The notes under the pieces are model-generated. The model was not told the origin of the DNA. It saw only the letters and a list, made by a program, of their open reading frames with translations, and did no database searches. From contig WELB01000079.1 of NCBI GenBank assembly GCA_009602725.1, positions 346,562 through 394,147 on the forward strand: 47,586 nucleotides of DNA. Direction: 5' to 3'. The stretch comes from Spirogloea muscicola. Taxonomy: Eukaryota; Streptophyta; Zygnematophyceae; Spirogloeales; Spirogloeaceae. The position numbers and the translations under genes were made by a program. This document shows positions 3,101-47,586 of the stretch, in pieces (the first letter of the stretch is position 1; every line of letters starts with the position of its first letter).

Positions 3101-6100
3101 CGACGTCTCTGTACATTAGTGCAAATGGCCGTTGCATACCCATGTCTGTTAATGACATGGTGCATGATATTATTATATGCCATAAGAAGCGTCCTTTGCA
3201 CTACATGTCCATGTCTTTCACTGGAAAAGCTGTGTGTTGTCAATATGGCACCAATTACTGTTTGATCATTGCTAGATGTCTTGATGCATGATGCCCCTCT
3301 ATCTGGTGCCGTGGTTCTGATAGATACAGTATGACTTCTTCAGGGATGGGAAACTATCTCCAAGGTCACGGAGAAGCTTATGTCGCATTCCGCAGCTCGT
3401 CGAATGCACATTGTGCCTCTCCATTCACAGCTCCCTGTCAGGGAGCAACATTTGGCCTTCCGTCGTGCTCCAGAAGGCTATTGCAAGGTGAAGGCCTGAA
3501 GGAGGTTGAGAGCATGTGAGGTCGCGCTTATTCTGCACATATGCCTCAAATAATTATGGATGATGTTGTTCCTGACCTCTGACAAGCAAGAGGCCTGCTA
3601 GTGATGCTCTCATAGTCGCTTGTCATGCCTTGCAATGCAAGTACTTCCATGAAGTACATAATTGGTTAAGCCTTGGACAGACATCTTCTTGTTCTCACAC
3701 ACTGCAGATTGTACTAGCAACGAACATCGCAGAAACAAGCATAACAATAGATGATATTGTCTGCGTCGTGGACTTGGGGCGGCACAAGATGAAGGCCTAT
3801 GATTCAAGTCGAGATATCACAGCAATGCGAGTGCAGGTACAACTGTTATAAGCACATACCACACATGTCCTGCATTGTAGTGCCTCTATGACGTGCCAGA
3901 CACGAGACTTGAGTGACGTGCCACTTGGACTTTTGCAAGAGAACGAAGGGCACAAGCAAGCCAGTTTTCATGGCAGTGAGAAGCTGGCAGGGAACACTTT
4001 GCCTTTTTTTGTCCTTGTTGTGAAGTATTGAGCAGATAGGCTGCAGAGTGCTAAATGAGAGTGCTAAATGAAGACTGCCTTTGATCAGTACTTATGTCCC
4101 TTGCAAATGTTGCATGCAGTGGATCTCCAAGTCAAATGCAAGGCAGCGAAAGGGTCGGGCCGGCAGAGTGCAATCTGGCCATTGCTTTCGACTATACAGT
4201 GAGCAAGTGAAGCCTCCTGTCCTGGTTGACAACTTCCTGCTTTCTGGTTGATACTGCTTGCTTAACATTCGACCTAAGCCTGAATTGTGTCCTCCCTATC
4301 ATGATATGAAGAGCAACTTGGAGAATGAGCTAACTTGAGATTTACTTTTGATAAGTATGAAGCCAAAGTCTTGATGAGTTTGGTTTCATATCATATCAAG
4401 ACCATTTCTCACCTGTTGAACATATCGGACGAGCTCTCTCAAAATCAGACATTCAGCCGCATTCCTTAGTCACAAATATAATGGTTGTTGAGATTATATT
4501 GATCTGTGACCTGTAATTACAATGTTGTCCAGGGTAGGCATGTCCTTGACTTGTGGGTCGTTGACACGCAGCTCCATATGTGCAATCACTTGTAGTCCAT
4601 TTCACACCGCCAATGCTTGAAAAGCAGTCCTCTGAAGTGAGCAACTTTCATATGGACACTTGTTTCTTGCATTGTTTGTCCTCCAGATCCATGCTGCCAT
4701 GTATGATCAACCCATTCCGGAGATGCTACGGATGCCATTGGAGGAGGTCTGCCTTCAGATCAAGTCCTTGGCGGTCACAGGCCTTGTAAGCAATCTGTCA
4801 TTCCTACACTCTCAGTTCTCCTCAACTGCTCAACTTTAAGCAATGCTGGGATCGCAGAGTTGGACATAATCTTGAAAGTATACCTGTAGCTGTCCCAAAG
4901 GTTGTGAGATAGTCTCAGAACAAGCATGTGAAAGCACGAAGAGATAATCTCTTGCCAATTCAGAATTCAGATTCTCTTGCCAATTAAGCTATGTTGCAAA
5001 GAGGCGTGCAGGTGGAGAAGCGAGGTACAGCAGCTTCAGAAATCCATAGCTGGAGGCACTCATCAGTCGTGGACTTGGCAGACATCACCACCTTTCTTGC
5101 AAGGGCCCTGCAGCCACCGAAAGCTTCAGCCGTGTACTCTGCCATCAGGACCCTGCGGGACATGGGTGCACTTGACAAGGTCAGGCGGCTGAATGATACT
5201 CAAGAGTTGACGAGTGACGTGTCCATTTCACATTGATGACAGGTTTGTAGATTGGCTCAAGGCTGTGGAAGACAAGTTTCACAATCAGCTGATTGAAGCT
5301 TGCTTCCCTGCTTCAGGAGGAGAATTTGACACCCCTTGGTCAGAAGCTGTCGAAGTTGGCAGTGCACCCTCGGCTTGGCAAGATGCTCATTTACGCAGCT
5401 CTGCTGGGCTGCTTGCCTCCCCTGCTCACAGTGGCAGCTGCAGCCTGCTTCCGTGACCCGTTCCTCTCGCCCATGTACAAGAGGGACGAGGCAGACAGGA
5501 TACGACTGGGCTTGGCCACGGGTGCTGCTAGCAACAGTGACCACCTCGTTGTTGCTCGAGCTTTCGAGATGTGGGAGGATGCTCAAGCCTCTGGGAGGGG
5601 CTTCGAGTTTTGTGATGTCCATTTTCTGGCCGTCGGCACCATGCAGCTAATTGCAGGCACCCGCAAGCAGGTCTGTACGTGCACGGCCGCCACACTAGGG
5701 TTGCTTTGCAGCACGATTGTGGCAGAGCTGCACTGCAACTTGGAAATGCATAACCTCATCTCATCAGTGTGCTGCGCTTTTTGTTTGCACTAGTAGCTGG
5801 TACAGGCAGTAATGGTCAGGAGTACTCCTACAGGAGGAGGAAGACCGTAACGAACTTCCATGCTGCTGCAGTTTGAGAGGGAGCTTCTGGACTCTGGCCT
5901 CTGGCAACCAGAGAGGCAGCTGCCTGACCGAAGCATCATCAGGGTGGCACGATGTGCTTTGACGGTTGGCATGCACCAGAATATTGCATACACCGAGATG
6001 TTCAAGGAAAGTAAGGGGTACAAGAGTGGTTCAAAGAAGGCATATCGCACCAAGTTGGGCTTCAAGTCTGATGGTTCTCGGGTGTTCATACATCCCACGT

Positions 6101-7405: not shown

Positions 7406-8742
7406 TTAGAAATGATCTGCCAGCCTTGCGGGCAAGCCTGCCAGGCCGAACCAGCTGGACTCGGAGGGGCAGATCTGCTGAAAGATTGGTAGTCGACGCG
7501 CGCGTGCGGCCATGCCGCAGCCCCAGCTCGCTTCGCTGAGCGATGCGAGTAACTTCACAGCAGGATCTGTTGCCGCTGCGAAGAAGGGCCGCGCTTCCTG
7601 CTTCTTAAGTAAGGCTGCGGCTACCAGCCCTGTGCGGTGGTGGATGAAGCGGCAGCGAGTTCCATAGGGGCAAGTTCCGTTTGTGTTGAAGGTGCGGCAG
7701 ATCTGCATGGGCCAACATCCCTCGGCAACGCTTCAGCAGCAGCATGCTTGCCAGCGGGCTTGGCAGTGGAACCCGATTCGAGTAAGAGATTGATACAACA
7801 GTAAGACGATCATTGTTTCATTTGTTGATCCAGCGGCCGGTCTGATGGAGATTGCAGGCTCCTACACACCTTGCTCCATTGGGTCGGACAATTTTCTTTC
7901 GAATTATGCAGCCTGTATGTAAGAAGCTCAAGACAAGGATGGTGCACCACAAGCACATTACCTCGGTCTTGTATTTGGGGTGGCGTGCCACGGGCCTGAG
8001 TTCCCCCTTTCCATGAGCAAACTGCACCAACAAGGACCGACTTGTGGATGAGCAGGAGGTCGCACTCATATGAGATTATGGCCAGTGGCATACTACAGCA
8101 GTGTGTGCCGAGTCCTCAGACGACAGCCTGGTGCATGAAAGAGTCTAGCAGCTGGCTATGAGATTGATAGTCAGCACACGCAATAACAAGGCTTGCAGAC
8201 GGGCTGCTGCAGGCGGCTTATGCATGGGCCTCCGCTGGCTGCACAGTGCTCCATAGCTGCTATGATGCAGGTCAAGCTAAAGCCATCATGCACGTTTTCG
8301 GACAAAGTTGCCCAACCTGGCACTTGCTGCCGTAGCGGCAGGAGCCAGTCTCCTCCCAGGACCGGCACAGCTCGGTCTTGTACAGGCTGTGTGGGGAGTG
8401 GGAAGGCCCAGGGGCAGCTGCTGCGGCCATGCTGCAGGAGGCGAGGCTGCTGCTGCTGCTACTGGACGTGTCGATGGAGCTGCCTGGGCTGCTGGGCAGG
8501 TCGCCGATGCTGCCGTCCTCGTCGTGGTCGCTCACGTAGCTAACCTCGTCGTAATTCTTTGCCGACCATGGAAGGTGCACAGCCTCCAGGGGCAGCTTGA
8601 AGTGATATGGCGGTGGCGTAGCCGCCGCCGGATCCATGCCACCGTAGTCAGGCAGCGAGCTCGAGCTGTGTGAGCTAGAGCCTACTGCGGAGCCAGCTGC
8701 GTTCCATGCCAGTAGCGTGGTGTGCCGCGGTAGCTGCAGCAT
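7406..8742 (-). CDS. Tristetraprolin-type tandem CCCH zinc-finger protein
   Basis: Predicted mRNA-binding protein of the TTP/ZFP36 (TIS11) class, about 260 aa from three exons read leftward: 8742-8317, 8021-7962 and 7702-7406. Joining them across GT-AG introns (all phase 0) gives two complete fingers, each C-x8-C-x5-C-x3-H: CRSWEETGSCRYGSKCQFAH and CRTFNTNGTCPYGTRCRFIH. Each is preceded by a YKTE lead-in (YKTEL, YKTEI), and an 18-residue linker separates them, as in animal TTP. The first finger is split by intron 1 after its third cysteine; intron 2 lies just before the first cysteine of finger 2. TTP proteins bind AU-rich 3' UTR elements and promote deadenylation and decay; that role here is inference from the family. 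The N-terminal ~115 residues are Ser-rich and acidic. The start MLQLPRH is the first ATG of that frame. The gene is convergent with the helicase, and its upstream side carries the G/GA tracts. Confidence 0.9.
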
Positions 8743-9080
8743 CGTGGGCAGCGGGCTCGTGGGTTCTGTGACGGCGGCAACGTCGGCGGCCTTGTCCGCG
8801 GGTGCCCACGCGGCGCTAGCACCCAGCGGCGGCCGTCCTGCGTCCAGGGAGGCGCTTGCAGCTACGCCGGCGCCGGCGCTCGACTTGGGTGGCCAGAACG
8901 GCAGCCGAAGCCCGCCCGCGGCTGGCAGTGGCAGCCCCGGAGGTGCGGGCTGGCGCTAGCGGGCAAGTGGGCTGCCGCGCCTGGAGGAGGGCTGCGGGCT
9001 GCTCAGCTGGCGATCGCGTGCGAGCTAGCGAGCGAGAGAGCGAGCGGGAGAGGGGAGGGGGGAGGGGAGAGAGGGGGAGA

Positions 9081-12790: not shown

Positions 12791-12794
12791 AAGA

Positions 12795-12990
12795 GAGAGA
12801 GAGAAGGGCTCGCCCATTGAGGATAGGGGCTGGAAAAAGACAGCCCAGAAAAGATGAACAAAGGACGAGAAGGGGCCAGGGGAAGTACGAAGAACAGCAG
12901 GCACAGAAAAGAGACGAAGCAGCTACGAAGCACTCAGTAACCCCTGCTAAGCAGCCTCAGGTCAGAGAATAGAGGGGCTAGCAAAGCCAG
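12795..12990 (-). mobile_element. Retrotransposon 3' end with type A tail
   Basis: On the minus strand, SDLRLLSRGY and a stop at ~12935 are followed by a tail with the hairpin GGGCTG-TCTTTTTC-CAGCCCC and CAATGGGCGAGCCCTTCTCT. It abuts the larger minus-strand fragment at ~12790. A further GGGGCTAGCAAAGCCAGCCC hairpin at 12972-12995 may belong to a separate copy. Confidence 0.75.
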
Positions 12991-13945: not shown

Positions 13946-14380
13946 CGCGAGTGAGCCCCTCACCCCCCTCACCTCGAGCACCATTGAACACCCAACGACG
14001 TGCTTGCCAAAGCCGTTGAAAGTAGGAACAGCCCTTCGGACCTTGTCACCTTATTCCGGGCTGGCTGTTTACAGCTCTTGCCTTTTAATGAAAAACGTGT
14101 ATTTGGAACAAACGAAGGCCAAATGGCCAAAGTACAAAGGCAAGCACATCACGTACATGATCTACAGCAGATTGACCCGCTCAGTAACCACGGGTCAATA
14201 CTTGAAGGTCGCTAATCGATGCCTGAATACTAGATGGCAGATACGAAGCCTTAGGGAGCACTTTCTTTTTCACAGACTTCGCCCCCTTTTGTAAGGAACC
14301 TCGCCCTACACACGCAGTTAGGGTGAGCAGTCCTTCTTGAGTTCGGCTGTAGGGGTTTAGGGACCAACCCACTACACAGG
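13946..14380 (-). mobile_element. Retrotransposon 3' end remnant
   Basis: On the minus strand QASISDLQVLTRGY with stop TGA at 14183-14181, followed by a GGGTCAATCTGCTG tail and a segment with AAGGCCAAATGGCC (14111-14135). The 14105-14253 stretch is repeated nearly unchanged at 16283-16430. A plus-strand core (TTCGGACCTTGTCACCTT, GGGCTGGCTGTTTACAGC) lies at 14036-14075. Confidence 0.75.
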
Positions 14381-15330: not shown

Positions 15331-16190
15331 TATACGCCGTCACAGATTCTGAAGTAAGCTTCCAAAGGCAGTAGCTGTGTAAGGCCTTGCTAGCCACGGC
15401 GGGTGCTGAGGGGGGACACACCGTGTTCACAAATATGTGGTGCTGGCTGAGATCGACCAGCCCAAGAAGAATGTGACAGTAGTTCTGAAGCAAAGTACGC
15501 CAATAGGAAGGGGCGGAAGTCATGCCAGCATGGGCAGCCGCTCCGCTTGTGAGGGCCGGACCGAGAAGAAAGCACATGTCTTCGAAAGGGAAGTCGCAAA
15601 CCTGCCAATGCCAACCTGTCATTGCCACCTGCCTGCATTCACAATCACTCTTGATGCATATACTGGAGAGCGGTTGCGGCCAACAAATGGACCAAGTCGT
15701 GGGGCGAGGTAATGAGGCTGCCGTGCTCTAGCTGCGGCCTCTGGCTTTGGTCAAGGGACTGCTTTCGGCGGCTAGTCTTTCTGACTTTTGCTGCTAAGAA
15801 GAGGTCTCAAGTGAATGGTTCATGGTACTTGCATAATGATATGTTTCAGCACTTTTCGGCCCCTTCGGACCTTGTCCTTTTCTGGGCTGGCCTCACCCCA
15901 AGGGAGAGCCACTTCTTCCTTCTTTCACCCCTGGCCTCGCCCCCTTTGGAAGAGCTCACTCTCTATCAGGACGCCCGCTCTGACAAGAAGAAGTGAGCTC
16001 TTCCATAGAAAATGCTCGCCCATAGAGAAGAGGGGCTGAGAAAGGCCAGCCCAAAAAGAATGGACAAGATCCAAAGAGCCAAAAGGTGCAGAAAAAGAAA
16101 TTCTACACAGCTAGACACTAGACGACGCAGATGGAAGCTCAGTACCCACGAGTGAGCAGCAGCAAGTCCAAGTAACTCGCAGCTGGAAAA
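15331..16190. mobile_element. Opposed retrotransposon tails, second inverted pair
   Basis: Plus-strand tail core at 15860-15950 (CCCTTCGGACCTTGTCC, GGGCTGGCCTCACCCC) faces a minus-strand type A end: tail from ~16005 to 16138 (CTCGCCCATAGAGAAGAGGG, GGCTGAGAAAGGCCAGCCC, AGAATGGACAAGATCC) and the terminus AASYLDLLLLTRGY with stop at 16141-16139. A similar tail-to-tail arrangement occurs at 13690-13945. Nothing coding was recognised at 15331-15850. Confidence 0.65.
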
Positions 16191-16985
16191 GAGGCACTCC
16201 GCCTAGACCCAGATGCAGCAGCCATAGAGCGCGGCCTGCTCGCGAGAGGACTGCATGAGCCAGGAAAATTTCGTGTATTTGAAACGAACGAAGGCCAAAT
16301 GGCCAAGTACTAAGGCAAGCACATCTATAGACCTACATAACCTACAGCAGATTGACCCGCTCAGTAACCACGGGTCAACACATAGAGGTCGCTAATCGAT
16401 ACCTGCATCCTAGATGCCAGACACGAAGCCCTTCTGCCAGCAACTAGAGCTCGCCAGGGAGCGCAGGAATGACATGCGGAAGACCTGCCCCATTGGAAGA
16501 TTCTTTCACAGCCCCAGCGGGGGCTGTGAAAGGAAGGAAGGCAAGGGCTGTGAAAAGGCAGCCTTAAAATTGAACAGTCCAAGGGGCCGGAAGGTGCCAA
16601 AACCACGCAGCTATGCAAGAGACTACAGTGAATGGGGAGCTTAGTAACCCCGAGTTAGCAGCCGTAAGTCGAATTAACTTGTAGCTGGAAAGAGGCACCC
16701 CGACGACGCCCAGAGTTAGCAGCCAAAGCGCGGGCTGCCCACATACACAAACCACCACATACAAGCAAGCGCGGCCAGATTAACTGGTGGCTGGGAGAGG
16801 CCAGCCCAAAAGAATGGACAAGGTCTGAAGGAGTCGGAGTGCTAAGGACTGAGACAGCAGTAAGCGAAACTCTCAGTAACCTCTCGTCAGTAGATGCAAA
16901 TCTGAGTAGCTAGCAGGCGGAAAGACGTCGCCCTGACGGAAGCCGGAGGCCGCCGCCAGAGCGCGGCCTGCGCGCAAGTGGACCG
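16191..16985 (-). mobile_element. Three minus-strand retrotransposon 3' ends in a row
   Basis: (1) SISDLYVLTRGY, stop at ~16363-16361, near-duplicate of 14105-14253. (2) A degenerate end at 16640-16760 (RALAANSG-like, frame broken). (3) A clean end at ~16985-16873: HLRAGRALAAASGF, GDVFPPASYSDLHLLTRGY, stop TGA at 16875-16873, then a type B tail to 16785 that ends with ACTGGTGGCTGGGAGAGGCC when read on the plus strand. Confidence 0.78.
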
Positions 16986-17345: not shown

Positions 17346-20300
17346 ATGTCAAGCGCGCCTCCGGAGCCCCGCCTGCGCGCGCGCATCCACGCCTGCAGCG
17401 CGGCGGCGGCGGCGGCGGAGGAGGAGGCGGTGAGCGGCCCCTCCGCCGCTGGCGATGACGGCGGCGCCATGAGGAGGACGACGCGCGCCGCCGCCAAGCG
17501 CGCTGCCATGGAAGCTGCTGGCAAGCCCGGGGGGGCTGCAGCGGCGGGGACCTCGGCGCCGCGGGACGCCCGCAGCAAGCGCCCCGCGCTGGCCGACCTC
17601 AGCAACCGGCAGAGCGTCTCGCCGGGCTCCGAGGCCCCCTCCAAGCCTCCTCCACGGCAGGTCAGCTCAGACGAAACGAGACGAGACGGTCATGCAGTGC
17701 TGCATCGACCGATGCAGCGCTAGCGCGAGCACCGGGCTCGTGACGGCCTCTCATGGGGTCCTCGACCCTTTGCCTCACCCGCGGCCGCATGGCGCCTGGC
17801 TCCAGGCAAAGGCTGGCAGCGTGTCCGTTGCATCGATCCAGCGAAGGACCGAGCAGAGCCTGCGCATCTCGTCTCTCAGCCAAACCCCCGACTGCCGAGG
17901 TTCTTGCAGCGGTCGCCCTTGCCCTCGTCGTGCCTCCTCGTCCATGGACCTCCAGCCTGGCTTCAGATCCTGCAGAAGTGGTGCAATGGAATGCATTGGC
18001 TGCTTGCTCTGACGCTGTTGTCTACATTGTTCAGCGGGCAGGTGTTGCCTTGGTGACACGAAGGTTGACCCTGCCTCTGAGCTGTGGTGGTCGCCGTCTG
18101 TCACAGACATGGAGGACGAGGACAGTGGGAGCTGGATGGTCAGTCCGTGTCACAACGACATTGACAGCAACCATGCAGATCCCCAGATGTGTACGTCCTA
18201 TGCTTCAGAGATCTACGACCACCTCCGGATCGCCGAGGTAGTTGTGCAAGAGCTCCCTAATCAGTGGACCATTTGGAGCGGTGTTCCTAGCCGCTAAGCT
18301 TGCCAGTGCTAAGAACAACTAAGATCAAGCTGGCACTTGCAGCTGCAACGAAGCAGACTCAGTTGAAGTGAGTGCACGCAAAATCGTCCTGCAGTCGTAT
18401 TGGCTTGACGCTTTCTTCGAAGGAGCTCGTCTTTGTTCAGGAGCGGCGGAGGCCCTCCATAGACTTCATGGAGACCTGCCAGCAGGACATTAATTCCAGC
18501 ATGCGGGGCATCCTCGTAGATTGGCTTGTTGAGGTGCGTCAGTGCATCTGTTGCCCTATCTAACCACGGCTAACCACACCTAAGCTAGTGATTGACGGAC
18601 ACATGTGGGCTTGCTTTGGGCCAGTGGTACGTCCCTCTGATAGTACAGTACAGCATGAGGCTGAAGATTGTGCACTTGTCATGCTCGCAAGGTGGCTGAG
18701 GAGTACAAACTTGTACCAGACACGCTCTACTTGACCTGCTCGTACATTGATAGATACTTGTCTGGCAACACCGTCCCACGTGGCCGCCTCCAGCTGCTGG
18801 GTGTGTCGTGCATGCTTGTGGCCGCGTAAGTGTCATACTGAGGCCATATTGTCTTGCCTTCTGGCAAGCACCCGCTGCCCGCCGCATTGCTCGTTGCAGT
18901 GGGCCCAAAAGTGCCTGCTGGACAATCAGCTGTATATTGTACAATTGCAACGTTGAATGTATCAACCAAGCATGAGCTGCAATTTGCCCACGTCACGGCT
19001 GACTCATGCCAGCACCTTCGTCTCCTTGAGCAGCAAGTACGAAGAGATCTACGCTCCACAGGTGGAGGAGTTTTGTTACATCACCGACAACACATATCGA
19101 AGAACTGAGGTGGATATCTCACACAAGCACAGAGGATTCACAAGCCAGCAAGTGCAGGAGCTTTGCTGTCAAGTCTGTGAATTGCTTTTGGGATTGGCTG
19201 ATGTTACCAAATTATTGCTACTGCAGGTGCTTGAGATGGAAAGAGCGGTCCTCAATCACCTACACTTTGAGCTCACAACACCGACCACCAAGAGCTTCTT
19301 GAGGTTCTTGCCTTATCATATCTTGCCCACCTGTATTGTGAAATTCAGGATACACATTACTGTCAAGAAAATCCATCCAGTCAAATTGCACAAGGGTAGC
19401 TTCTCCTTCCCCAAGTTTGAAACAGTGCTCTTCTGCAATCACTCTGAAATGCACCGCTCCATATCCTCCTTGTGCAGACGCTTCATCCGAGCTGCGCAAG
19501 CTGGCTTACGTGTACGTCATTCACCATGCCTGCTGCTCATTGGCTGCAATAGCTCATACACTCACCACCTGTATAGCTGGTGTGGTCTTCTCACAGCTGC
19601 TGCATTTTGTTGTGTGCTCAGAGAGCAGGTCTTGATACGCCTATGTTGCCCCTTTCATTATTGCCAGGTTGTGAAGCTGGAGTTGGAGTTCCTTGCTAAT
19701 TACTTGGCTGAGCTCACGCTGATGGAGTACTCGTTTCTGAAGTTCCTGCCCTCGCTAATAGGCGCTTCTGCCGTTTTCCTAGCAAGCCTCACTCTGCAGC
19801 CTGACAAGAACCCTTGGGTGAGTTCTCAGCACAAGGACGCCTGAGTTCACAAAATCTTGCTGTGTTGCCGAATTACTGCACTTATGACAATGACAGGCTT
19901 CCGAGCAATGTCCGAGCAATCTTTCCCCTTCTCCGATATAGAGATTGCAGTATCTAGGAATGCGCTGTCAGTGCTGATTGCTGGAGTTGCTGATGGTGCT
20001 GTGTGCTACAGACCCCAACACTGCAGCACTATTCTCACTACAAGCCATCAGACCTGCGGGAGTGTGTCATAGCACTGCACGCACTGCAGATGAACAGCAG
20101 AGGCTGCCAATTGCCAGCCATACGAGAAAAGTACCGGCAGCACAGAGTACACAACTGCCATGCTTTGTTGCCAATTGTATATGCCTGCTGCTTTAGTCAT
20201 GGAACAAAACAGTTTGCTTGTACTCAATGCAGATTGAGCTTCAGTTTCTTTGCATCTGATCAAGGATAGCATAGCAAAGCAAAGAAAGAGCCGGCTGAAG

Positions 20301-24538: not shown

Positions 24539-25184
24539 TCACAGGTGCCTGCCACCCCTGCCCCTATGGTGATTGCCTCGAAAGACGAAGCTGGGAGCTG
24601 GGCCAGGGGCACTAGCAAAGTAGCTGTGGTTGTGGCGGGCTCCGTGAGTATGATTGGCTGTGCCATTGACGGTGCCGTTGACGTTGAGCAATTTGTTGCA
24701 ATCATGTCCATGGGTAGTGCCGTTGACAGTCACACTTGTGCCTTGGGGATAGACGCAGGTGTGCGTGCCATTGCCAAACAGGGTGTAATTTCCAGCAAAG
24801 GGACCATTGCCATGGTGGTGCCTGCTGCCCTTGCCACCCCCGCCGTGGCCACCTCTAGCAAAGCCTCCTGCACGTGCACATGCACACACTTCCACAGTAA
24901 GCACGTGCAGCACTTCCCTGTAGTGAAGGTTTGCCGGCTTTGGACATCATATGAACTAAGAGATACTGAGGAGCAAAGGTTGCCTAGTCCTAAGCAGAAG
25001 GCGGGGATGTGCGTTTCCTTCTGAGAGCGTCAGGGATTGCTGAGGCATCAAGGCATCACTCGGGGGGGGTGTCTCTATAGTGTCTCCCTTCCAGTGTCAA
25101 ATGCACCGCGTGCTCACCATGCGGCAGGGTGGCGAACACCAGCGCCATGACAGCCAAAATGAAGAGCATGCGCGAGATTGCCAT
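24539..25184 (-). CDS. Secreted His/Gly-rich protein dense in N-glycosylation sequons (twin 1)
   Basis: Predicted secreted glycoprotein of 131 aa; I do not recognise a family. Exon 1 (25184-25118, 67 nt) encodes a signal peptide, MAISRMLFILAVMALVFATL, and ends at a GTGAG donor. A phase-1 intron follows, and exon 2 runs 24867-24539. The mature part is Gly/His-rich (GGHGGGGKGSRHHHGNG), then carries seven N-x-S/T sequons in about 60 residues (NYT, NGT four times, NHT, NHS), two cysteines, a short SAPGPAPS stretch and a basic Gly/Arg/His tail (HHRGRGGRHL). It fits a cell-wall or extracellular-matrix glycoprotein, or a metal-binding His-rich protein; both are inference. It has a structural twin at 28167-28910. 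Retrotransposon sequence begins within ~120-400 bases upstream of its start. Confidence 0.72.
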
Positions 25185-25299
25185 TCTGAGCGTGGAGATG
25201 GCTTGCCATGCACGAACATAGCAACACCATCTGTTAGAGCTGTGTTATGTAGCTGCTCGAAGTAAATGGCTTCTCATGCAAAGTGGAGTAGGTGTTGCT

Positions 25300-25600
25300 T
25301 GAGGCATCATCAACAAGCAACTCCTTGTGCGCGAGCTCACTCAGCAAGAACCCGGCAGCTGCAGGTCGTGTGGACATTCGACTCGCGCTGAGGCCTGTCG
25401 CTGGTCGGGCCCACGAGCTTGACGCCCACTGGCCCCAAGAGATGGCGGAGCAGGCACCGTAGCGCAGGGGAGAAAGAAGGAAGCCCTTGCGAGCACCTAC
25501 CTGGAGACACGAAGGGGCCGCTGGGGCAATGGCGGGAGGCCTTGTCCTGAACGAGTCTGGTGGGGCGGCGAAGGAGACTGCAGTAAGAGGCTCGCGGAGG
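25300..25600. mobile_element. Probable retrotransposon-associated sequence upstream of twin 1
   Basis: GC-rich sequence between the twin 1 promoter and the clear retrotransposon end at 25600. Several open frames, none recognised. It may be part of the same insertion, but no diagnostic motif was found. Confidence 0.35.
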
Positions 25601-25870
25601 GAGGGCCTTATTAAGAAGAATGCGGCTGCTGATATCAAAAGAGCGGCTGTGAAAGCCAGCCAGATGCATACAGGTGTTCATGACGGAGCCACAGGCTAGG
25701 CAGCCAGGGCGCTCTTAGTAACCCCGTGTCAGCAGTAGGAAGTCAGATGAGCTGAGGGGAGGAAGAGCAACCCCGCTGCGCAAGCCAGAGGCTGCTGCAA
25801 GGGCACGACCAGCGCGGCGATGCAAAGCAAGCGCTTGGGAACGCTGTAGCGACATAGACAAACGCATAAA
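25600..25870 (-). mobile_element. Retrotransposon 3' end with type C tail
   Basis: On the minus strand: MRLSMSLQRSQALALH, GRALAAASGL, LPPLSSSDFLLLTRGY, stop TAA at 25717-25715. The type C tail that follows (GAGCGCCCTGGCTGCCTAGC, GCATCTGGCTGGC, GATATCAGCAGCCGC) is almost identical over ~120 bases to 31131-31255 on the plus strand. The 5' piece 25816-25869 nearly equals 11931-11984. Truncated, with no complete ORF. Confidence 0.85.
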
Positions 25871-26770
25871 GGAGGGCGTGTACAAGTGGTGGAGGCCACG
25901 GTGGGTGGGTTGCTCAGTCAGCGTGGAATAACATTACTCGCTATTGCTTGACCCGTCGAACCGCGACGGCGACTTCCCCATTTGCGCCGATGGGCGGTGC
26001 GACAAGGGCCCCCGAGAGGCAGCTTCGCTGCGGCCGCACTACGGAGAGTCCCCGCTGGTGTGGCACGTGGCCACTGGCGTGGCCGGGCCCCGCTGCCCAC
26101 GTCCCGCGAAACCGCGCGCCCCTGACACCTCGGCTTCGCCAGGTGCCCTCCCCAAGGCCCCCATCTCACGCTCCGAGCCGGCCGCTTGGCAAACTGGACC
26201 TGTCCATTCTTTCTTGTGCGGGCCACTACGACGTTGCCCCTCTTGAAGAGCTTCCTCTTTCTACCCCGCTCTTTGCACTAGCTTTTGGATAAACAATATC
26301 TTGGCTTGATTTGGCCACCCTTTCCATTTAAGCGCGCGCCTTCTCTCATTTTGCAAGCAGGACTCGACGAGCATCAAAGTGTGGTGATATAGATAATCTC
26401 GTCCAGGATGCGCTCTCTCTCGATCGCCTCGATCGAGGTAATCAAAGATGCTGACCATCCTGGGGGGTGGGTGACTGTGGTCCCACTGCGACGTGACGCT
26501 CACGGGGCAATTTGCCTCCGTGGCTCGGGCACCTCCGAACTTCATTCATTCTTTCCCTGGTCTGGCCAACGACAGCCATCGCCCTCTCTGCAAGAGACTT
26601 TTTTTCTTGTAATAGCTCACCTTCAGTAGCAACCGCCTCTTTGGAAAATATTTCATCTCTTGCCTGTATGGCTGCCCTTGTAGCGGCCTCGCTGCCTTAC
26701 GAGCACTGGAAACAGTTTGAGCCCCCGCATTGCCAGCGAGAGCACTTTCCCTCCCTCCTCTTTGTCAGTC
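25871..26770. other. Repeat-like region, no gene recognised
   Basis: Contains two overlapping ~100-codon open frames at 25944-26292 (for example ICADGRCDKGPREAASL) that I do not recognise, and a segment at 26310-26350 shared with 9798-9860. Flanked on both sides by retrotransposon ends, so probably part of the same nest. Confidence 0.4.
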
Positions 26771-26779
26771 GCTCAGACT

Positions 26780-27090
26780 TGTATCACTAATTGACCACTC
26801 CTGGCAGGCGAAGCACGCAAAAGGTCTGGTGAGATTAGATTTTCCGCTCGCTATTGATATCCACGGGGCCTTTGGGCTCAAGGGTTTGATTTGCTGCACC
26901 AGCTTGCACAATGCACGATGGTCTGTGGCAAGAAAGCAGGCTCTCTGGCTTCTCAATATCCTGCAGCATTGTCTGGAGCACGCCTCGTGTCTGCATGCTG
27001 GCAGTGCCCTGGCTGCTGCCTCCGGCTATCGGTATTGGTATCCAGCTGCTGGTATATCTTGACTGCGGCTGCTGACCAAGGGGTTACTGA
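26780..27090 (+). mobile_element. Degenerate retrotransposon 3' end
   Basis: FPLAIDIHGAFG near 26843-26880, then shifted frames, LHAGSALAAASGYRYW at ~26990-27040, a stop, and CTGACCAAGGGGTTACTGAG, the decayed LTRGY-stop. A tail with GGGCTGGCGCTTTGCAGCCC follows at 27091-27125. Confidence 0.75.
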
Positions 27091-27125
27091 GAGGGCCGTG
27101 GGCTGGCGCTTTGCAGCCCTTGCTC

Positions 27126-28166
27126 CACTGGAGAGAGCTGCTTCTCTCGCACCGCCCCCTTCAAATAGCTGTTGTCTGTCCTCATTGAGTTCTCTTCCCC
27201 TCTCTGATCACAGGCTGCTGCGGCATCACGATATCAGCTGCTAGGAGCCATCCACGTAAAGGTGGGCTTGTGGGCTTGAAGCCCATCTCTGCAAGTTGCC
27301 CTCGGCATGCCTGGCCAACATCCGAGGACCAGCAAACGGAAGCACCAATCTCGTTGATGACCCTAGTGATTACTTCCGCATGCCCATAAGTACTATTTCC
27401 TCTATATCAACTTTGCTTATTTGTGCTCTATGACTTCTGACCCTTGTATTCTTCAGTGTGACCTGCAAGTGCTAGTCTGTGCCTCGCACCTTTCACAGAT
27501 TCGCACCAGCTGCTGACGTGGGCTTCTGCCATGGGGGCTCCTTTCTGTGACCAGTTTGTGACCTTGGCCTACGCTCTTGAGTTGAACAGTGAGTCAAACA
27601 GGCAGTACCCTCTGCTGGCGCAATCTTGGGCCGACGTTTCTATACGTTTGCTTGGGCTAGTCGCTCACAGTCATTGCATGTAAAGGGAGCTTGCATGGAC
27701 CTGAAACGAAGTGTATGAACTATCATCAAACCAACGGAGGGCAGTTATCTCACTGTGAGAGACGATGGGGCCCAGAGGTTTTCTGGAAGTTCTGAACAAT
27801 CAAAACATCAAAATCATGGCAACATGTTTGCAGCATACATACCGTGCTTCTGCAAGGCTCATGCCTAGCCATATCAACAATTGTCAGTAGACCAAGTGCG
27901 CAATTTATACATCAAGCATACTGGAATTGATGTACAGAAGACTGTCCTCAACCAAGTCTTTGAAAAAAAAGAGGAATGTAGTAGTGCAGGTCAGAGTGTA
28001 TCACTCAGACTGCAATGAGAACGACTACAGTCCAACAACTGCCCAAGTCCTGGCCTTGCACAAAATAATCCTGGCCTTGCACACAAGTGCCTCAGCAAAT
28101 CTAGCTAAGAAAGACGACAGCCAAATGACTGTTGATACTCAGATAGTCTTGCCAATTTCATAGTAT
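27126..28166. other. No gene recognised between the retrotransposon and twin 2
   Basis: Intron-like or intergenic sequence; only short frames. Probably includes the 3' UTR of twin 2 near its right end. Confidence 0.45.
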
Positions 28167-28910
28167 TTAGTGACCACGGAAACGTCCAAAGAAGCCAGCC
28201 CTGCGGCCACCTCCATGCGTCCCATTCAAAGTCTTGTTGCCAGTAGTGCAGTTTGAGTGGAGAGTGTGGTTGAATCCGAGAGTGTGATTGTATCCAACAG
28301 TGTGATTGTGAATAGTATGATTGTGAGCAGTTCCATTAAACTTGGTGCCATTGTGTGTGCCGTTGAGGTGGAAAAAATGACCATGTCCTCTGCCTGGTCC
28401 ATGCAACAAAGAACAAGTCTGCTGCTTAAGATCTGCAACCTCAAAAGCAAGCTGCAACTAGAGAAGCAGCAGTAGCTGCAATGTATGTCGCAGACATCCG
28501 CTTTGCAACAGGCTGGTTACCTACCATGAAGCATGCGACCTTCTACAGCAGCGTTCACAGCGCTGCCTTGACCTGCGACCAATTAAGTAACGCAAGTCAA
28601 TTGACCAGAGATAAAGCTGGTGTCTGACTGATTGCGCCTCCCTAAACTAGCATTGACAAAAGTTTGGGACATACCATCTATCTGTGCGACATCTGCAGGA
28701 CCTCAGATGCAAATCTACCCCAGACCTGTAAGAGATGGTTCACAATTTGCCTTATGCTCTTGTCTTGGAGCAGGCATCTCCCATTCTGTCCTTGATGATG
28801 GCAGAACTAGACTTGCCATTCAGGCCTCGATGATCAAACTCACCAAGGAGTAGCACAACTGCCACAACAAGAGCAGCCAGAAGCCCCATAAGATTGATTT
28901 GACCCGCCAT
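28167..28910 (-). CDS. Secreted His-rich protein dense in N-glycosylation sequons (twin 2)
   Basis: Paralogue of the gene at 24539-25184, 110 aa predicted. Exon 1 (28910-28844, again exactly 67 nt) encodes the signal peptide MAGQINLMGLLAALVVAVVL and ends at GTGAGT. A phase-1 intron of ~411 bases follows; exon 2 is 28432-28167. The mature chain starts DLKQQTCSLLHGPGRGHGHF and then carries ten sequons within about 55 residues (NGT four times, NHT four times, NCT, NKT), often as repeated GxNHTLGFNHTL-like units. It ends in a Gly/Arg/Phe tail, FFGRFRGH. Two cysteines occur, as in twin 1. Function unknown; a heavily glycosylated, possibly metal-binding, wall or matrix protein is inference. It is distinguished from a chance frame by the signal peptide and the matching gene structure. 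Confidence 0.72.
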
Positions 28911-29700: not shown

Positions 29701-30260
29701 AGTTGGAAGTCTCGGCACAGCTGGCTTCCCCCTTCATAAAAGCTGCACCTTCTTGCAGAAAGCGGCTGCCGATATCAAAAGAGCGGCTGTAGAGAAGAAG
29801 TGGCACTCCCAATGGGGGCAAGGGCTGTGAAAAGCCAGCCCGAAAAAAATTTACAAAGGTTCGAAGGGGCCAAATGACGGAGGGGCCTAAGAACCGCTAA
29901 AAAAGCTGTAGAGAGAAGTGGCTCTCCCAATTGGGGCAAGGGCTTTGAAAAGCCAGCCCGAAAAGCATTGACAAGGTGTTAAGGGGCCAAAAGCGCTGTT
30001 TCGAAAACTGGGGTACACTGCCGTATAGAAGAAATTGCTCGCCCCTGGAGAAGAGGGGCTGGCAAAGCCAGCCTAAACAGAATGGACAGAATCCATAGAG
30101 CCAAAGAAGGTGCCGAAAAGAAAAGATATACAGCTAGACACGAGACGACGCAGAGGAAACGTCAGTACCCACGGGTGAGCAGCAGCAAGTCCAAGTAACT
30201 CGCAGCCGGGAAAGAGGCTGTATAAGCCAGCCAAGTGCATACAGAGCTCAACTCTCGTCC
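29700..30260 (-). mobile_element. Minus-strand retrotransposon 3' ends
   Basis: Tail cores at 29750-29870 (GATATCAAAAGAGCGGCTGT; GGCTGTGAAAAGCCAGCC), at 29915-29990, and a full type A end: tail 30030-30161 with GGGGCTGGCAAAGCCAGCC and AGAATGGACAGAATCC, and terminus PAASYLDLLLLTRGY with stop TGA at 30164-30162. The last end nearly duplicates 16005-16190. Confidence 0.8.
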
Positions 30261-30790: not shown

Positions 30791-31255
30791 TTAATTGTTT
30801 CTTTTCTGTTTCTGGGCTGGCCACTCACAGCCATCGTCCTCTACTGGAAGAGCCTCTCTCTCTTTTCCAACTCTCCCACCCCTGGCGATAGATGTACACG
30901 GGGCTTTCGGCAGCCGCTGGTTGGATCTCCTCCAGCGGCTTGCCCGTCAGGCCATTGACCGGCGGCAGGGTCTGCCAAGGGCGATGCCCGGCTTCAACGC
31001 CGCCGGGTCGCTCGCCCAAGTCTTCCGTATGCGCCTGGCGGTATCGTTTCAACGCTCCTTGCCTACGCCGTTCACACGCCGTCCACAGCGCAGCGGGGTT
31101 GCTCTTCCTCCCCTCAGCTCATCTGACTTCCTACTGCTGACACGGGGTTACTAAGAGCGCCCTGGCTGCCTAGCCTGTGGCTCCGTCATGAACTCCTGTA
31201 TGCATCTGGCTGGCTTTCACAATCGCTCTTTTAATATCAGCAGCCGCTTCTTCTT
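30790..31255 (+). mobile_element. Retrotransposon C-terminus with type C tail
   Basis: Frame with PPLAIDVHGAFGSRWLDLLQ, AGSLAQVFRMRLAVSFQRS and LPPLSSSDFLLLTRGY, stop at 31152-31154. The tail matches the minus-strand copy at 25600-25715 almost base for base. Compared with 13002-13484, the GRALAAASG block is altered (RPQRSGVA), so the frame is partly decayed. Confidence 0.83.
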
Positions 31256-31510
31256 CGCGAGCAGGCCGTGCTATGGCTGCCGCCTCTGGGTCTCGGCGGA
31301 GTGCCTCTTTCCCTGCAGCGAGCTACTCCGACCTGATGTTGCCCACTCGCGGGTACTGAGCTTCCCTTTGCATTGTCTTGCGTTTTGTAGTGTTTTGAGG
31401 TGTATCCTTTTTCCGGCACTTCTTCTTTGGCTTTGGACATTGTCCATTCTTTTCGGGCTGGCTTTGCCAGCCCCTCCTCTATGGGCGAGCCTCTTCTCTA
31501 TGGGCTCCAC
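31256..31510 (+). mobile_element. Retrotransposon 3' end with type A tail
   Basis: SYSDLMLPTRGY, stop TGA at 31357-31359, then GCTTCCCTTTGCATTGTC, CCGGCACTTCTTCTTTGG, ATTGTCCATTCTTTTCGG and the perfect palindrome GGGCTGGC-TTT-GCCAGCCC, then TATGGGCGAGCCTCTTCTC. This is the cleanest example of the type A hairpin. Confidence 0.82.
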
Positions 31511-35362: not shown

Positions 35363-37781
35363 ATGGAGTGTACATGGAAGCGCCAGAGGCTCGCTGATCG
35401 CCTGCATGGTGACAAGAGCAGGATGGGCAAGAAAGGCAGACCGTCTCCGGCCAACCTTGTCAAGTACAAGGCACCCACTATGCTCCCAATGATAGTATTG
35501 CTGTGGATAAATGCCGGCAAGATCTCACGCAGCTTGGGTGTGCATCCAAGGCACTTCGATGCTGAGCGAGCACTTCTGCAGGTAGGTCATATGCAGGAGA
35601 TGTCTCGCCCAGTTATCTTGATTTGTTGGCAGCAGCCACATACTGTTGGAGCTCTGCTTGCAGCGGCACTGTCCTTAATCAATAGACTGATCGTATCGGG
35701 CCTCTTGCCGGCTGTTGTACCTCACATCGTGATGCAGGCATGCAAGGCCACTGGTCTTCAGGACTTCGGCGAGCCGGGCTTCATGGAGCCACTGCAAATA
35801 CTACTGAAAGGCCTTTCAGACGAGGCAAAGCTGACTGCTTTTGGGAGGTCCTTTGCTTGGGGCATGCTGCAACGCCTTCTCCAGGTTATTCCGTTTTCAC
35901 GAAGTTTAAACTCCGTGCTCACCGGCAAAGCACAGGTGACAGAGAAGTTGCACCCGCATCTAACATGATGTATGCTCAAGTACAAATTGATATTGCTCAA
36001 TCTGCAGGGCAGGCTGCATCTGGTGGACGTCATGGACCGCCACCCCGAAATCGATGAGCAGACTCTGGAAGTAAGTCACTCATGACCTCCTTCGCAAGCA
36101 TTCAGAAACTGCCTCAGACTGCCCCGAAGCCTGCCCAGCTTATGTTGATCAGTAATTGTCAGGTTCCTGTGCATGTATGGCAGGAGCCATTATTTGTGGT
36201 GGGCCTGCCAAGAACAGGCACGACCCTGCTTCACCACCTCCTAGCCCAGGACACAAGTAGCCGCTCTCCTGCCACGTGGGAGGTCCACTACATCTACCCA
36301 CCACCTGATGCAGCCACGTACACAACAGACCCCCGCATTGCGCGTATGGAGAAGACATTGGCCAAGCTTGACGCTCTGCTGCCCACCTTCAAGCGAATCC
36401 ACCACGTGACAGGTAAGCCGCAGCTTGGAGCAGTAGCCTCGTCTCGATTAAGCCAAGCTGTGTCTTTCATTCAGACAGCAGCCGTGCAGAAATAGCTTAC
36501 ATGTGCTGCTTGCGATATTCCCAACAGCACAATCGCCACAAGAGTGCATGGGCTTCATGATGTACGACTTCGCCTCCTTTGCCTTCCCCGGTGTTCATTT
36601 CGATCTCCCAACCTATTGGACGTGGTATGAGGCGGCAGACCTTTACCCAACATATAAGTTCATGCGCTGGCAACTCAAGTATCTTCAGGTGAGCTGCAGC
36701 CATCTAAATTTCTGCATTTCCCGGTACTCTTTCATTGGAGATCACATGCTGAATCGCAAGATAATCTCCTCTACCTGCTGGGTCAGTGGAGAGGGCCCAA
36801 GGGCCAGCGTTGGGTCCTCAAGTGCCCAGCTCACTTATGGAGCATGAAGTACCTCATCAAGGTACATAAACTCATATGTCAGTTGCGCTGTCTATGTACA
36901 ATCTAGCATTCAAATACATATTCCCGAGCATGTTTCTGACAAGGTAAGATGCACCTTGGAATTATATGACCTCCTAGAAGATTGTCTTGGCCAGTTGTGA
37001 CCACAGCTCACTATCGGTAATGGTCAGGCATTCCCGGATGCTCGCTTCATCTTCACACACAGAGACCCGCTCAAAACGCTTGCGTCAGCAGCAAGCCTCA
37101 TAACAACATCCCAGCGACTGGCCTCTCAAAGGGTCAATATATCAAAGGTAACAAGACCTATCCCTGACCATCTTAACAAGCTGGAGTCTCAGCTTCGGAG
37201 CATGAGGATGCATCTGTTATGGTGCTTGCTATCGTGGTGTGCTCTAAAGAGCGCCTTTACTGCTACTGACAGGCCGCATGAAAATCGTACAGAATGCAGC
37301 CGAGTGGGCACCAAGATTTGCAAATGCCCTTGCAAGCTGCGAAGCAGCACGATATGCACATGGCCTGTGGGATCCCAGAAGAGCTGCTGATTTGCACTTC
37401 GACGAACTGATAAGATCACCGGTGGAGAGCATGCAGACTATATATAGTGGGTTCGGCTATAAGGTGGGCAGAATTGGATTTTACTGTCCCAGATTATTTG
37501 AGCATTTAGATTGTTGCGTGAGAGCCTCATCTGCCTTTGCTGACTACGAAATGACTACTACGGCCATCATGCCCACCTTTTAAACACTGCATGGTTGTGT
37601 AATTGTGTAGATGACAGAGGCGCTGCAGGGTCGCATGAAGACATTCCTCAGGAACCACGAGCGAGACAAGCACGGGGCTCACCAGTATAGCTGGGCTGAC
37701 ACTGCACTGGATGAGGGACGTGAGCGAAACCGTTTCTCCTCATACGAGCAGAGATTTGACATTCCAAGGGAGCTGCTATAG
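35363..37781 (+). CDS. PAPS-dependent sulfotransferase (Sulfotransfer_3-like)
   Basis: Predicted to transfer sulfate from PAPS to an unknown acceptor. Exons: 35363-35581, 35738-35884, 36008-36070, 36163-36412, 36528-36688, 36787-36861, 37028-37147, about 37272-37463, 37611-37781; all but the eighth left border fit phase. The 5'-phosphosulfate-binding loop is GLPRTGTTLLHHLLAQD; the 3'-phosphate-binding part is FIFTHRDPLKTLASAASL. Other family blocks are TGLQDFGEPGF near the N-terminus, YPPPDAATYTTDPRI, LQ/WRGPKGQRWVLKCPAHL formed across a splice, and the C-terminal KHGAHQYSWAD...RFDIPREL. The layout matches a family common in bacteria and present in algae. MLPMIVLLWINAG near the start might be a short membrane anchor or part of an alternative start (ATG at 35363, 35423 or 35480). 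In frame, exon 7 ends at phase 0 but exon 8 seems to need phase 1, so one border there is wrong or the gene carries a small indel. Confidence 0.88.
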
Positions 37782-40451: not shown

Positions 40452-43400
40452 CTACACATCACCTTCCTTGATAACAACTGTATAATTACGGTGAGGGCCA
40501 GTGTACCTACGGAAGATTTGGTAGGCTACAGCGAACAGGGCTGCTGAGAGGAGCGCTACAACGGTTATAGCCGTCCAGCCAGGAAGCACCAAGGGTCCAA
40601 TTTTTATGGAGGTTGCCAAAGCTGCAGCTTTTGCTTTCTCATGTTCAAGGAGCTGCACACCAATGAAGCAACAACACTCTCAGCAGTGTTGGCAAACTGA
40701 TATGCTGACAAGATTATGAATGTCAAGCGAGCAGGCGTGAAGCCCAGAAGCCAGCCCCCAAGGTGGCATGTGCTATTCATAGGGGTGTAATCAAGACAGT
40801 GAACAGGCTTCAATACTACTGACACTACTGTCAGGATACATGCAACTTATTAATATTAACCAGCAAAAGTGAAGCAGTGGGTTCAAGAACCTGCTTGGTA
40901 CTCACGTTTTTCAGCACATCAATTTCCTTCTGCAACTCTGCTGGATCCTGTTTGCCGCCCACAAACAGTCCTTTACGGTTTGCTAGCCTTACCAATCGAT
41001 AGCACTCAGGATTCAGCACTGTGGCATTGAGGTTTGATAGGCACTGTCCATAATATCCAACCACAACATTTCCTGTACTTGCAGGATGAGAAGGACAATA
41101 CTTCTCCACGTCACTATCGCACTGCTTTGTTAGGTCAGCTCCAGCCAAATATTGGAAAAGAGCCATGCGTACAGCATAGGACACCTGACACAAAGCAGCA
41201 ATGAAGAGCTCAGATATTGGCAGATCACTCGAAGCTGAATGACATGCCACGTGTTATTATGACTGTACACACACCTTTTATGATAATACGACTGAGAAAT
41301 TCTACAATCTCAACTTCAAGATTTCCTGAGTAAAGTCCCCTGCATGCAAGTTTGCCAGCTTCTGCCCATCAAATGCTGCCCGTAAGGATCTTCACTGCTA
41401 ATGGATACATACCTCAGTGCCGCAACTATCTGTCAGATTTTTGAAAGTACTTATCAAGCACAGGAGGACTTTAGCATGGCCTTCTTGGCCCTTGTCAGCA
41501 TCCTTGCATAGACGTTGTACGTCATTTTTGCACTCATCTCGTAATCTTATGTCCAACTTGTAATTGGCAGCATGTCGAGCCTCCTACACGATCACAGGAC
41601 ACAAGGCTTGTTATTGAGATCATGGCCGGCACAGTTACAAGAGGAGTGAACATGTCAAGCACCATGCGATGTGGCCTAGCCCGTCAGTAGTAACAGACCT
41701 ATGTGATGCTGAATGGAGGCAAAAGCTAACCTGAATGTTGACTTCTCCTTGACAAGCAGCTCCCAGTTTACCCTCTAGCAAAGCCATCTGCAGGCACTTA
41801 AAAGCTTCCCCATTTGAAGGAGACACGCTTTTGCACATCAGATTCAAATCTGCAAGGGGCGGTGACAGATGATGAGAGGTGTCCTGATCGATTGAGTGCA
41901 CAACCCCAGCTAGTCGTACAAAACAGCAGCTACACGTACGCTGTCAACTCTGCTGGTGCTTGCACCCTTGCTTGGCTAAGCATCTGTTGCACTGAAGGGC
42001 AAGCTCTTCTTCTGCAAAGTGTTACCCAAAATAATGATGATATCCTTTACCTAGACCGCACGCGTTCATGAGGGTAGGCGTCAAGCGTATGTCACTTGCC
42101 TGTCAAACACATGCACCATCAAGACACCTGAATTATTTTAAGAGGTATATGCAGTACTCTGGTCAGGCAAACTCATGCAATGATATATACAACGCTTCAC
42201 ATCAAGCACACAGCATAAGTTGAGTCGCCGAAAACAAGCATACCATACAAATCTAGGACTGTCTCCCAGGACAGTAAAGTCGCTCATATCATGAAAGAGT
42301 CTACTATTGACCATGAAATGCACTTTGCGGCCTACCTCCATCTCACTAAAACGCATCTCCTCGACCTTGCACTTGTCTGTTAGCTGTTCACGATTCTTCC
42401 TCAGACAAGTCAATGTCTTCGAGTGGTCCTTGCTGACACGCTTGCAGAACTTTGTGAGGTCATCCTTGCATGCCATTTGGAGGGGCACATCGAGTTGTAT
42501 GTCTGCTGCCTCCAACGTTTGGAAAAGAAATACTTCATCCCCACAAGAGGAGCTCAGATTGCCCACGTTTTTCTCAAGGCACTCAATCATCTTGCCATTG
42601 CAGGTTTCAGACCCAGCTGCTGCATCTTCGTCACATGCATGTAGACACAACGAGGAAGTCTCTTTCACGCACGCTTTCGTCAGCTTGTAGTTAAGGCGAT
42701 AATCTGCGCAAAAGGCCACCCACAGAGCTCTTCCAATGAGTGCACACAACAATCTGGGACCCAACATTCTAAAGTGCATGAGCAGATGACTGCTGCATGT
42801 AAATGGTACCAGCGAGTGCTGATAGCGGTTGCCCATACCAGAAGGCTGAAGGCCGCGGACACTGACCTACCCTATTGCCAACAACAGCCACGTCTCAAGA
42901 GTGGTGAAGCATCAGAGCCTCTCCTTACTGACCTTGAGCTGAGTGCTCCATGTCGCGCTTGACCTCCTTCTTACATTCTTCACTCATGCTCTTCAGCTTA
43001 ATACTCCCTTGTAAGCATTTAATGATCCGCCCATGACCTGGATATGCCCGTTTCATAGAGCAGCAACCACCTCAATGACAGTGCATGCTCGTATGATAGT
43101 CACCACAATATACTACATACTATGTTTCCAGTGCAATGTACATTGCACTTGATTCGACCATTTCCATGCCTGCCGTCCAATCAGCAGAGAGGTTGACTGA
43201 CCCTCGTGGATAAGAAGCTCAAGCTTGTTGCACATGCACTAATGAGGTCGGACAGACCCTTGCGTGACAGAGGCAGTCACCTTGCTTGATGTCCTTGCAG
43301 AGATCTTTGATTTCCATGGCACAGGCTTGCTTCATTGGCAGTTTGAAGTCAATGTCTTCTGCCATTCGCATCTCCTGATCAAACCAGATTATCAAGACCA

Positions 43401-47039: not shown

Positions 47040-47586
47040 CCATCGCCACCGCCAGACCTTGTCCATTCCATTGGGCTGGCCACTCCCAGCCACAGCCACC
47101 AGTTCATCTGGCCGCGCTTGCTTCTCTTACTTTGCAGGAGCCGTCTCCTGCGCACTTTAACAGAGAGAGAAGTGCGCGCCCACTTTAACAGGGCTGGACT
47201 TTCACGGCGCGCACTTCGCTCTTTTCGGGCTGGCTTCTCACAGCCCTTGCCCCCATTGGGAGAGCCACTTCTTTCTGCAGCGAGCTACTCAGACCTGATG
47301 TTGCTCCTGCGCCGCCCGGGCCAAGGAGCTAAAATACGCATATCGTATGTTGTAGTGTAGTCCTTTCTCCGGCTCCTCTTGCTTTGAGCCGGCTGACTTC
47401 AACGCCGCTGGCTCGTGGGCTCAGGTGTATCGTATGCGCTTGTCCGTCTCCCTCCAGCGGTCCATGGCCCACGCCTTGCATCTGCGTGCTGGCCGTGCTC
47501 TCGCTGCGGCCTCCGGCTTTCGTCAGGGGGATAGTTTACCGGCAGCTAGTCTGTCGGATGTGAGGCTCCTCACTCGTAACTACTAA
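47040..47586 (+). mobile_element. Retrotransposon tails and C-terminus reaching the sequence end
   Basis: A type B core at 47054-47120 (CAGACCTTGTCCATTCCATT, GGGCTGGCCACTCCCAGCC, CCAGTTCATCTGGCCGCGC), another core at 47221-47270, an interrupted SYSDLMLL at ~47283-47310, then the C-terminus from ~47398: DFNAAGSWAQVYRMRLSVSL, MAHALHLRAGRALAAASGF, LPAASLSDVRLLTRNY, stop TAA at 47584-47586, the last bases of the window. The final peptide is LTRNY instead of LTRGY. Confidence 0.85.

Follow-up and report, generated by a model that had tools for sequence, protein, structure and literature searches.

Two adjacent genes for putative secreted, sequon-dense and histidine-rich proteins in Spirogloea muscicola

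Classical arabinogalactan proteins (AGPs) consist to about half or more of proline, alanine, serine and threonine, with repeated AP, SP and TP pairs, and the mammalian histidine-rich glycoprotein is a His-rich, N-glycosylated, secreted protein credited with binding both metals and acidic polysaccharides. The His-rich AGP31 and cationic AGP peptides of Arabidopsis are reported to help boron bridge the pectin domain rhamnogalacturonan II (RG-II) in vitro (PMC9555800), and according to a preprint Zygnematophyceae are protected from desiccation by AGPs and by mucilage sheaths rich in homogalacturonan (PMC9915684). Here we analyse two minus-strand genes, A and B, in a window of 47,586 nucleotides (the whole stretch of DNA under study) from the zygnematophyte Spirogloea muscicola; the window lies on contig C79 of the genome searched (153.1 Mb, 471 contigs). 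Judging from their sequences, the products of both genes are probably secreted and carry many potential sugar-attachment sites (N-x-S/T sequons), many histidines and a basic tail. Such a family did not appear in the open-access literature searched for function, relatives and habitat, and the word histidine is absent from the accessible portions of a Penium secretome paper (PMC6027541) and a review of the green-algal matrix (PMC10762512).

Gene models, relatives and predicted products

A first-pass annotation of the window had proposed two minus-strand genes. Open frames, GT-AG splice sites and stop codons are seen in three copies of each gene. Besides the window copies, A and B each have two copies, about 90% identical, on contigs C1 and C70, where their order and strand are as in the window and their spacing is similar; the existence of these copies suggests that the genes are real. 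For gene A, the proposed two-exon model with a 67-nt first exon and a phase-1 intron stands, its splice sites being conserved in the copies:

25184-25118, minus strand: gene A exon 1, 67 nt, with a signal-peptide-like hydrophobic start (by hydropathy); open, with its GT donor kept, in three copies
25117-24868, minus strand: gene A intron, 250 nt, phase 1; GT-AG in three copies, with 45 of 239 columns variable and six indel events
24867-24539, minus strand: gene A exon 2, with a Gly/His linker, the sequon stretch (seven sequons), a basic tail and the stop

The predicted product is 131 amino acids long, with two cysteines kept in all three copies, and 35 of the 390 coding columns over both exons vary, with one 6-nt indel. 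Gene B has a more complex structure:

28910-28844, minus strand: gene B exon 1, 67 nt, with a hydrophobic start; conserved in three copies
28843-28573, minus strand: gene B intron 1, 271 nt, phase 1; GT-AG in three copies
28572-28525, minus strand: gene B middle exon, 48 nt, with candidate cleavage site V-N-A↓A; conserved in three copies, with a homologous 45-nt exon in C220a, C220b and C158
28524-28433, minus strand: gene B intron 2, 92 nt (131 nt with the second acceptor); GT-AG in three copies
28432-28394, minus strand: 39 nt that are coding only with the acceptor at 28432; 2 of 39 columns vary
28393-28167, minus strand: gene B last exon, with 10 sequons, basic tail and stop; open and without indel in three copies, homologous to C220a and C158

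The earlier model of gene B was right about the 67-nt first exon, the phase-1 intron and the end at 28167, but the intron it drew hides the middle exon, which is in frame, has phase 1 on both sides and is preceded by AG and followed by GT in each of the three copies. In the other B copies the candidate cleavage site reads V-D-A↓A. The last exon may begin at 28432, the acceptor first proposed, or at 28393, and the two variable columns of the 39 do not discriminate between these sites. The two cysteines ascribed to both products are found in every copy of A, and in B only with the acceptor at 28432, as the form beginning at 28393 has one.

Outside the A and B loci, the exons of B are matched piece by piece by paralogues on two further contigs (together C): two copies on C220, 7.6 kb apart (C220a and C220b), and one on C158. 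Their first and middle exons have 64 and 45 nt, and a first exon of exactly 67 nt, as in A and B, is therefore no hallmark of the family. The three B copies, C220a and C158 follow one plan of three exons, phase-1 introns, an NGT-NGTK-GTAHN core, an NHT array and a basic Gly tail, and the middle exon carries a candidate V-[N/D]-A↓A cleavage site in all five B and C chains examined. Alignment of the mature chains of B and C scores 138 (z of 11.2 against residue shuffles, and of 7.7 against shuffles that keep sequons whole), and their signal parts also align beyond chance (P 0.001). B clearly matches as one member of a small family made up of the B locus and the C220/C158 locus.

For gene A no such kinship was detected. 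Its mature chain aligns to that of B with a score of 63, where residue shuffles give 53.8 ± 8.7 (P 0.15) and sequon-block shuffles 66.7 ± 10.4 (P 0.62); the corresponding P values are 0.08 and 0.30 for A and C, and 0.48 and 0.88 for the C70 copy of A and the C1 copy of B. The signal parts tell the same story (A-B P 0.55, A-C P 0.29). We accordingly rejected gene A as a member of the B/C family, homology being undetectable by either shuffle test, and the 'twin genes' of the first-pass annotation come apart, B grouping with the C220/C158 genes. The plan common to A and B would then be a resemblance, with common descent beyond detection possible.

The first-pass annotation had suggested an undescribed family; searches further afield, which covered Pfam, the PDB and viral and prokaryote collections but no eukaryotic proteomes, returned no relatives. 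Pfam gave no family for A, B (long form) or C220a at E up to 1, and PDB profile searches yielded no relative, the best E values being 2.5 for a B/C profile and 0.27 for an A profile (an antibody chain). Short patterns hit 41, 113 and 29 stretches of viral and prokaryote sequence, of which tblastn upheld none, the A profile being applied to viral contigs only. Protein searches of the genome at E up to 10 found the A, B and C loci alone, plus a weak match on C4 with an internal stop, although low-complexity relatives may escape such searches.

The outline first given for the products is supported: the N-terminus is hydrophobic, sequons are crowded, histidines are numerous and the end is basic. 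N-terminal hydrophobic 11-mers have a mean hydropathy of 2.95-3.40 in all eight chains, each of which has a candidate cleavage site (by simple hydropathy and the -3/-1 rule), and after residue 35 none of the eight has a 15-residue segment with hydropathy above 1.1. Mature chains contain 13-18% His (9/9 chains computed) and 15-24% Gly, with 8-19 Lys and Arg residues against 1-3 Asp and Glu; there are 4-5 prolines in A and 0-1 in B, and 0-2 cysteines, which are absent in C. The last 20 residues are basic, with 2-5 hydrophobic residues. Single-sequence folding gave no confident fold (mean predicted local distance difference test, pLDDT, of 42 for A exon 2 and 52 for the B last exon), and such low values, computed without an alignment, hint weakly at disorder. 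The predicted mature chains comprise about 105 residues in A and 83-96 in B; the ~55-60 residues first given fit the sequon stretch only.

Constraint on the exons and their sequons

Comparison of the three copies argues that A and B are probably real, fast-evolving genes under mild constraint. Leaving the disputed 39 nt of B outside the exon and intron counts, 63 of 732 exon columns vary, against 90 of 595 in the introns (Fisher P 2.7e-4), and the exons contain a single indel event (6 nt, in frame), against nine in the introns (P 0.007). In the true frame, with gapped A codons skipped, silent and replacement rates are 0.097 and 0.049 in A, 0.083 and 0.045 in B, and 0.119 and 0.075 in C. C220b (within the piece C220:204500-210500), in which the exons are present, was kept outside the coding and sequon counts because its sequon region is frameshifted.

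The sequons themselves are far too dense to be accidental. The counts of 7 in A and 10 in B were confirmed; across copies they are 7, 9 and 9 in A (C79, C70 and C1) and 10, 9 and 10 in B, with 10 in each of C220a and C158. In 20,000 shuffles of each of the eight mature chains the observed number was never reached. Seven sequons within 60 residues occurred in none of 146,834 frames from 20 Mb of first-order Markov sequence. Real sequence (137,656 bases, in pieces with slight overlaps) contained them in 8 of 1,168 frames, and every one of these eight was an A, B or C220/C158 gene. These shuffles and the simulated and real frame controls rule out a chance origin. Spacing is even in B, at 4-6 residues (P 0.0005 against random placement), with P values of 0.017 for C and 0.50 for A; this test, like the tail boundaries used below, was chosen after the data had been seen.

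Is this density maintained by selection? Between the window copy of B and C220a, sequon codons show 6 replacement and 11 silent changes, against 29 and 8 elsewhere (P 0.005). Put differently, replacements affect 6 of 30 sequon codons and 29 of 47 others, and silent change at unchanged residues is ordinary in both (11/24 in sequons, 8/18 elsewhere). The other two B copies give P 0.003 and 0.027 against C220a, and these comparisons are not independent. We consider selection keeping the sequons of B and C to be partly shown, because the alignment over this repetitive stretch may itself favour sequon matching.

That caveat is one of several points that weigh against reading A, B and C as working genes with maintained sequons. 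Pairwise ratios of replacement to silent substitution rates (dN/dS) of 0.53, 0.69 and 0.32 in A, 0.52, 0.40 and 0.92 in B and 0.61 in C show weak constraint. The pooled ratios (A 0.51, B 0.54, C 0.63) lie above the 0.04-0.49 of six neighbour comparisons, made with sulfotransferase and cyclin exon pieces, of which the sulfotransferase piece extends as far as its frame stays open and may include some intron sequence. As a frame control, the +1 frame lacks a contrast between silent and replacement rates in A, B and C and the +2 frame of A has a weak one; yet the +2 frame of B (0.079/0.044) is practically equal to the true frame, and in the +2 frame of C (0.105/0.078) the contrast is only somewhat weaker. 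The frameshift in C220b may mark a pseudogene or an assembly error. Sequons are not preserved in gene A: 6 of 10 sites occur in all three copies, and positions vary more often within sequons (7/30) than elsewhere (7/75). Among the homeologues of B and C, replacements spare sequon codons (2/60 versus 27/141, P 0.0035), but silent changes are few there too (1/60 versus 11/141; ratio test P 1.0), so that low local divergence is possible and this test alone is no proof of selection. Similarly, the tails (the last 16-26 residues) change least, replacements having hit 3 of 61 tail codons and 40 of 245 mid-chain codons (P 0.022), and their silent change is low as well (2/61 versus 19/245, P 0.27). 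Finally, where sequons lie just four residues apart, not all of them may be used.

Genome setting

A whole-genome triplication is reported for S. muscicola (PMC7994812; PMC9065682), and the genome searched here indeed looks triplicated. The window runs parallel, with gaps, to pieces of C1 (over ~15-40.7 kb of the window) and of C70 (over ~9.2-39.8 kb of the window; about 9234-40662 overall), a collinearity expected of a triplicated genome. The photosystem I gene PsaD has three equal matches on three contigs. Among the best 60 of 81 single-domain PDB matches, the top score for PsaD is 267 bits (5l8r), with 262 for 6igz and 235 for 6ijj, entries which we take to be pea, the chlorophyte Bryopsis and Chlamydomonas, respectively. 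PsaD, of plant and green-algal type in all three genes, shows that the DNA belongs to the green lineage, as first proposed; it only hints at a streptophyte, because the entry assigned to a chlorophyte also reaches 262 bits.

Dispersed repeats lie at 12794-12968, 14096-14250, 16010-16455, 25617-25853, 29757-30244, 31071-31499 and 47385-47584, and are shared within the window and/or with the compared pieces of contigs C1, C70, C220 or C158. Both genes have one short repeat upstream, at 25617-25650 (A) and 29757-29790 (B). The neighbours with Pfam matches are:

5293-5793, plus strand: HA2 helicase-associated domain
8272-8955, minus strand: CCCH zinc finger
18957-19844, plus strand: cyclin
36058-36495, plus strand: sulfotransferase
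42138-42866, minus strand: Cys_rich_FGFR repeats

Possible roles and known counterparts

What might these proteins do? The first-pass annotation suggested a wall or mucilage glycoprotein or a metal-binding coat, which is plausible but still a guess. Our best reading, to which we would give an even chance, is that A and B encode small N-glycoproteins of the zygnematophyte extracellular matrix (wall or mucilage), binding acidic polysaccharide or metal through their histidines and tail. The signal peptide would direct the spliced products into the endoplasmic reticulum, where N-glycans would be added to several of the 7-10 sequons. The result would be a bottlebrush-like, probably disordered segment, which in B might bear a sugar chain at intervals of about five residues. 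Once secreted, the protein could bind homogalacturonan-type mucilage and/or transition-metal ions through its histidines and its basic Gly/Arg/Lys/His tail, mucilage binding being suggested by the analogy with AGP31. It would then serve as a hydrated spacer whose end is sticky and sensitive to pH or metal, a plan which A and B would have reached from sequences without detectable kinship. The lack of a second hydrophobic segment, the basic His/Gly-rich chain, the absence of a confident fold and the slow change of the tails are in keeping with a spacer that would carry glycans and end in a binding tail. One could go further and posit an N-glycan counterpart of plant AGPs - a pH- and metal-switchable bottlebrush, with selected sequons about every five residues and histidines between them, anchoring homogalacturonan mucilage by a conserved basic tail and evolved in two unrelated adjacent gene families - but in this ambitious form we think the idea unlikely.

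Other roles would make use of the same features. Perhaps the products are secreted antimicrobials, in which the cationic Gly/Arg/His tail is active and its release is preceded by a state in which the glycosylated stretch makes it soluble or harmless. We know of no antimicrobial peptides with dense sequons as a feature, and A, B and C do not have the same tail; this role seems doubtful to us, even if the tails are basic and change so little, and even if shepherin I, a Gly/His-rich plant peptide, is described as antifungal with zinc (PMC10698721). A trap for extracellular metal, in which Zn, Cu or Ni is captured by histidines interspersed among the sugars and the main role is uptake or detoxification, would account for the His content of every mature chain and the two conserved cysteines of A; set against the lack of a known metal-binding domain in Pfam and of cysteines in C, we rate it as rather improbable. 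Weak constraint, the ambiguous +2 frame, the frameshift in one of three C copies and the turnover of sequons in A would all suit decaying genes, or frames without a working product that just happen to have stayed open after a recent triplication. This, however, sits poorly with the absence of any out-of-frame indel in three copies of A and B, when the introns have collected nine indels, and with the older homology of B and C over three exons with sequons kept, and we give it little credence. The small, predicted secreted chains and the pairs of basic residues in the tails of B and C recall precursors of signalling or mating peptides, the peptide being cut from the tail and perhaps amidated, and the pro-region glycosylated. 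Domains of the peptide-amidating type do occur in the genome: PF03712, the C-terminal domain of copper type II monooxygenases, has 12 exon matches, with two places each on C7, C11 and C212. Yet six of the 12 have internal stops (which may be introns), and the B and C tails have only basic and Gly residues in common, leaving such a precursor very improbable.

If the A, B and C products are indeed small matrix glycoproteins, how do they compare with those already described? The closest are the AGP31-type (type 3 PAC-domain) wall glycoproteins of land plants, which are likewise secreted, glycosylated, His-rich and cationic - secretion and glycosylation being predicted here - and whose likeness in gene A extends to a short APGPAPS motif present in all three copies. 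They differ in ending in a PAC / Ole e 1 domain that carries six spaced cysteines; A, B and C220a have no Pfam match, and the mature chains only 0-2 cysteines. A further difference is that sugars are expected here on asparagine, not on hydroxyproline, in chains with few prolines. As for the domain itself, PF01190 (pollen Ole e 1) has 34 matches over the cut-off in this genome, many of them clustered, on C40, C55, C139, C46, C47, C66 and six other contigs; the earliest PAC-domain proteins are placed in bryophytes (PMC7177597), and PF01190 may be wider than PAC.

With classical AGPs, the chains described here would share heavy glycosylation and a probably disordered, extracellular nature. Proline, alanine, serine and threonine make up 17-26% of the mature chains, however, with few AP/SP/TP-like pairs (0-4), and there is no hydrophobic C-terminal signal for a glycosylphosphatidylinositol (GPI) anchor. 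Shepherins, as far as the available description goes, are similar in their richness in Gly and His, with A, B and C being longer, more basic and dense in sequons. The mammalian histidine-rich glycoprotein differs in being large and multidomain, and was not among the PDB profile matches. Should secretion and glycosylation hold, the A, B and C products would be small matrix proteins in which densely spaced sugars go together with histidines and a basic tail, and in which the proline-rich design of plant wall glycoproteins, be they AGP31-type or classical AGPs, is absent.

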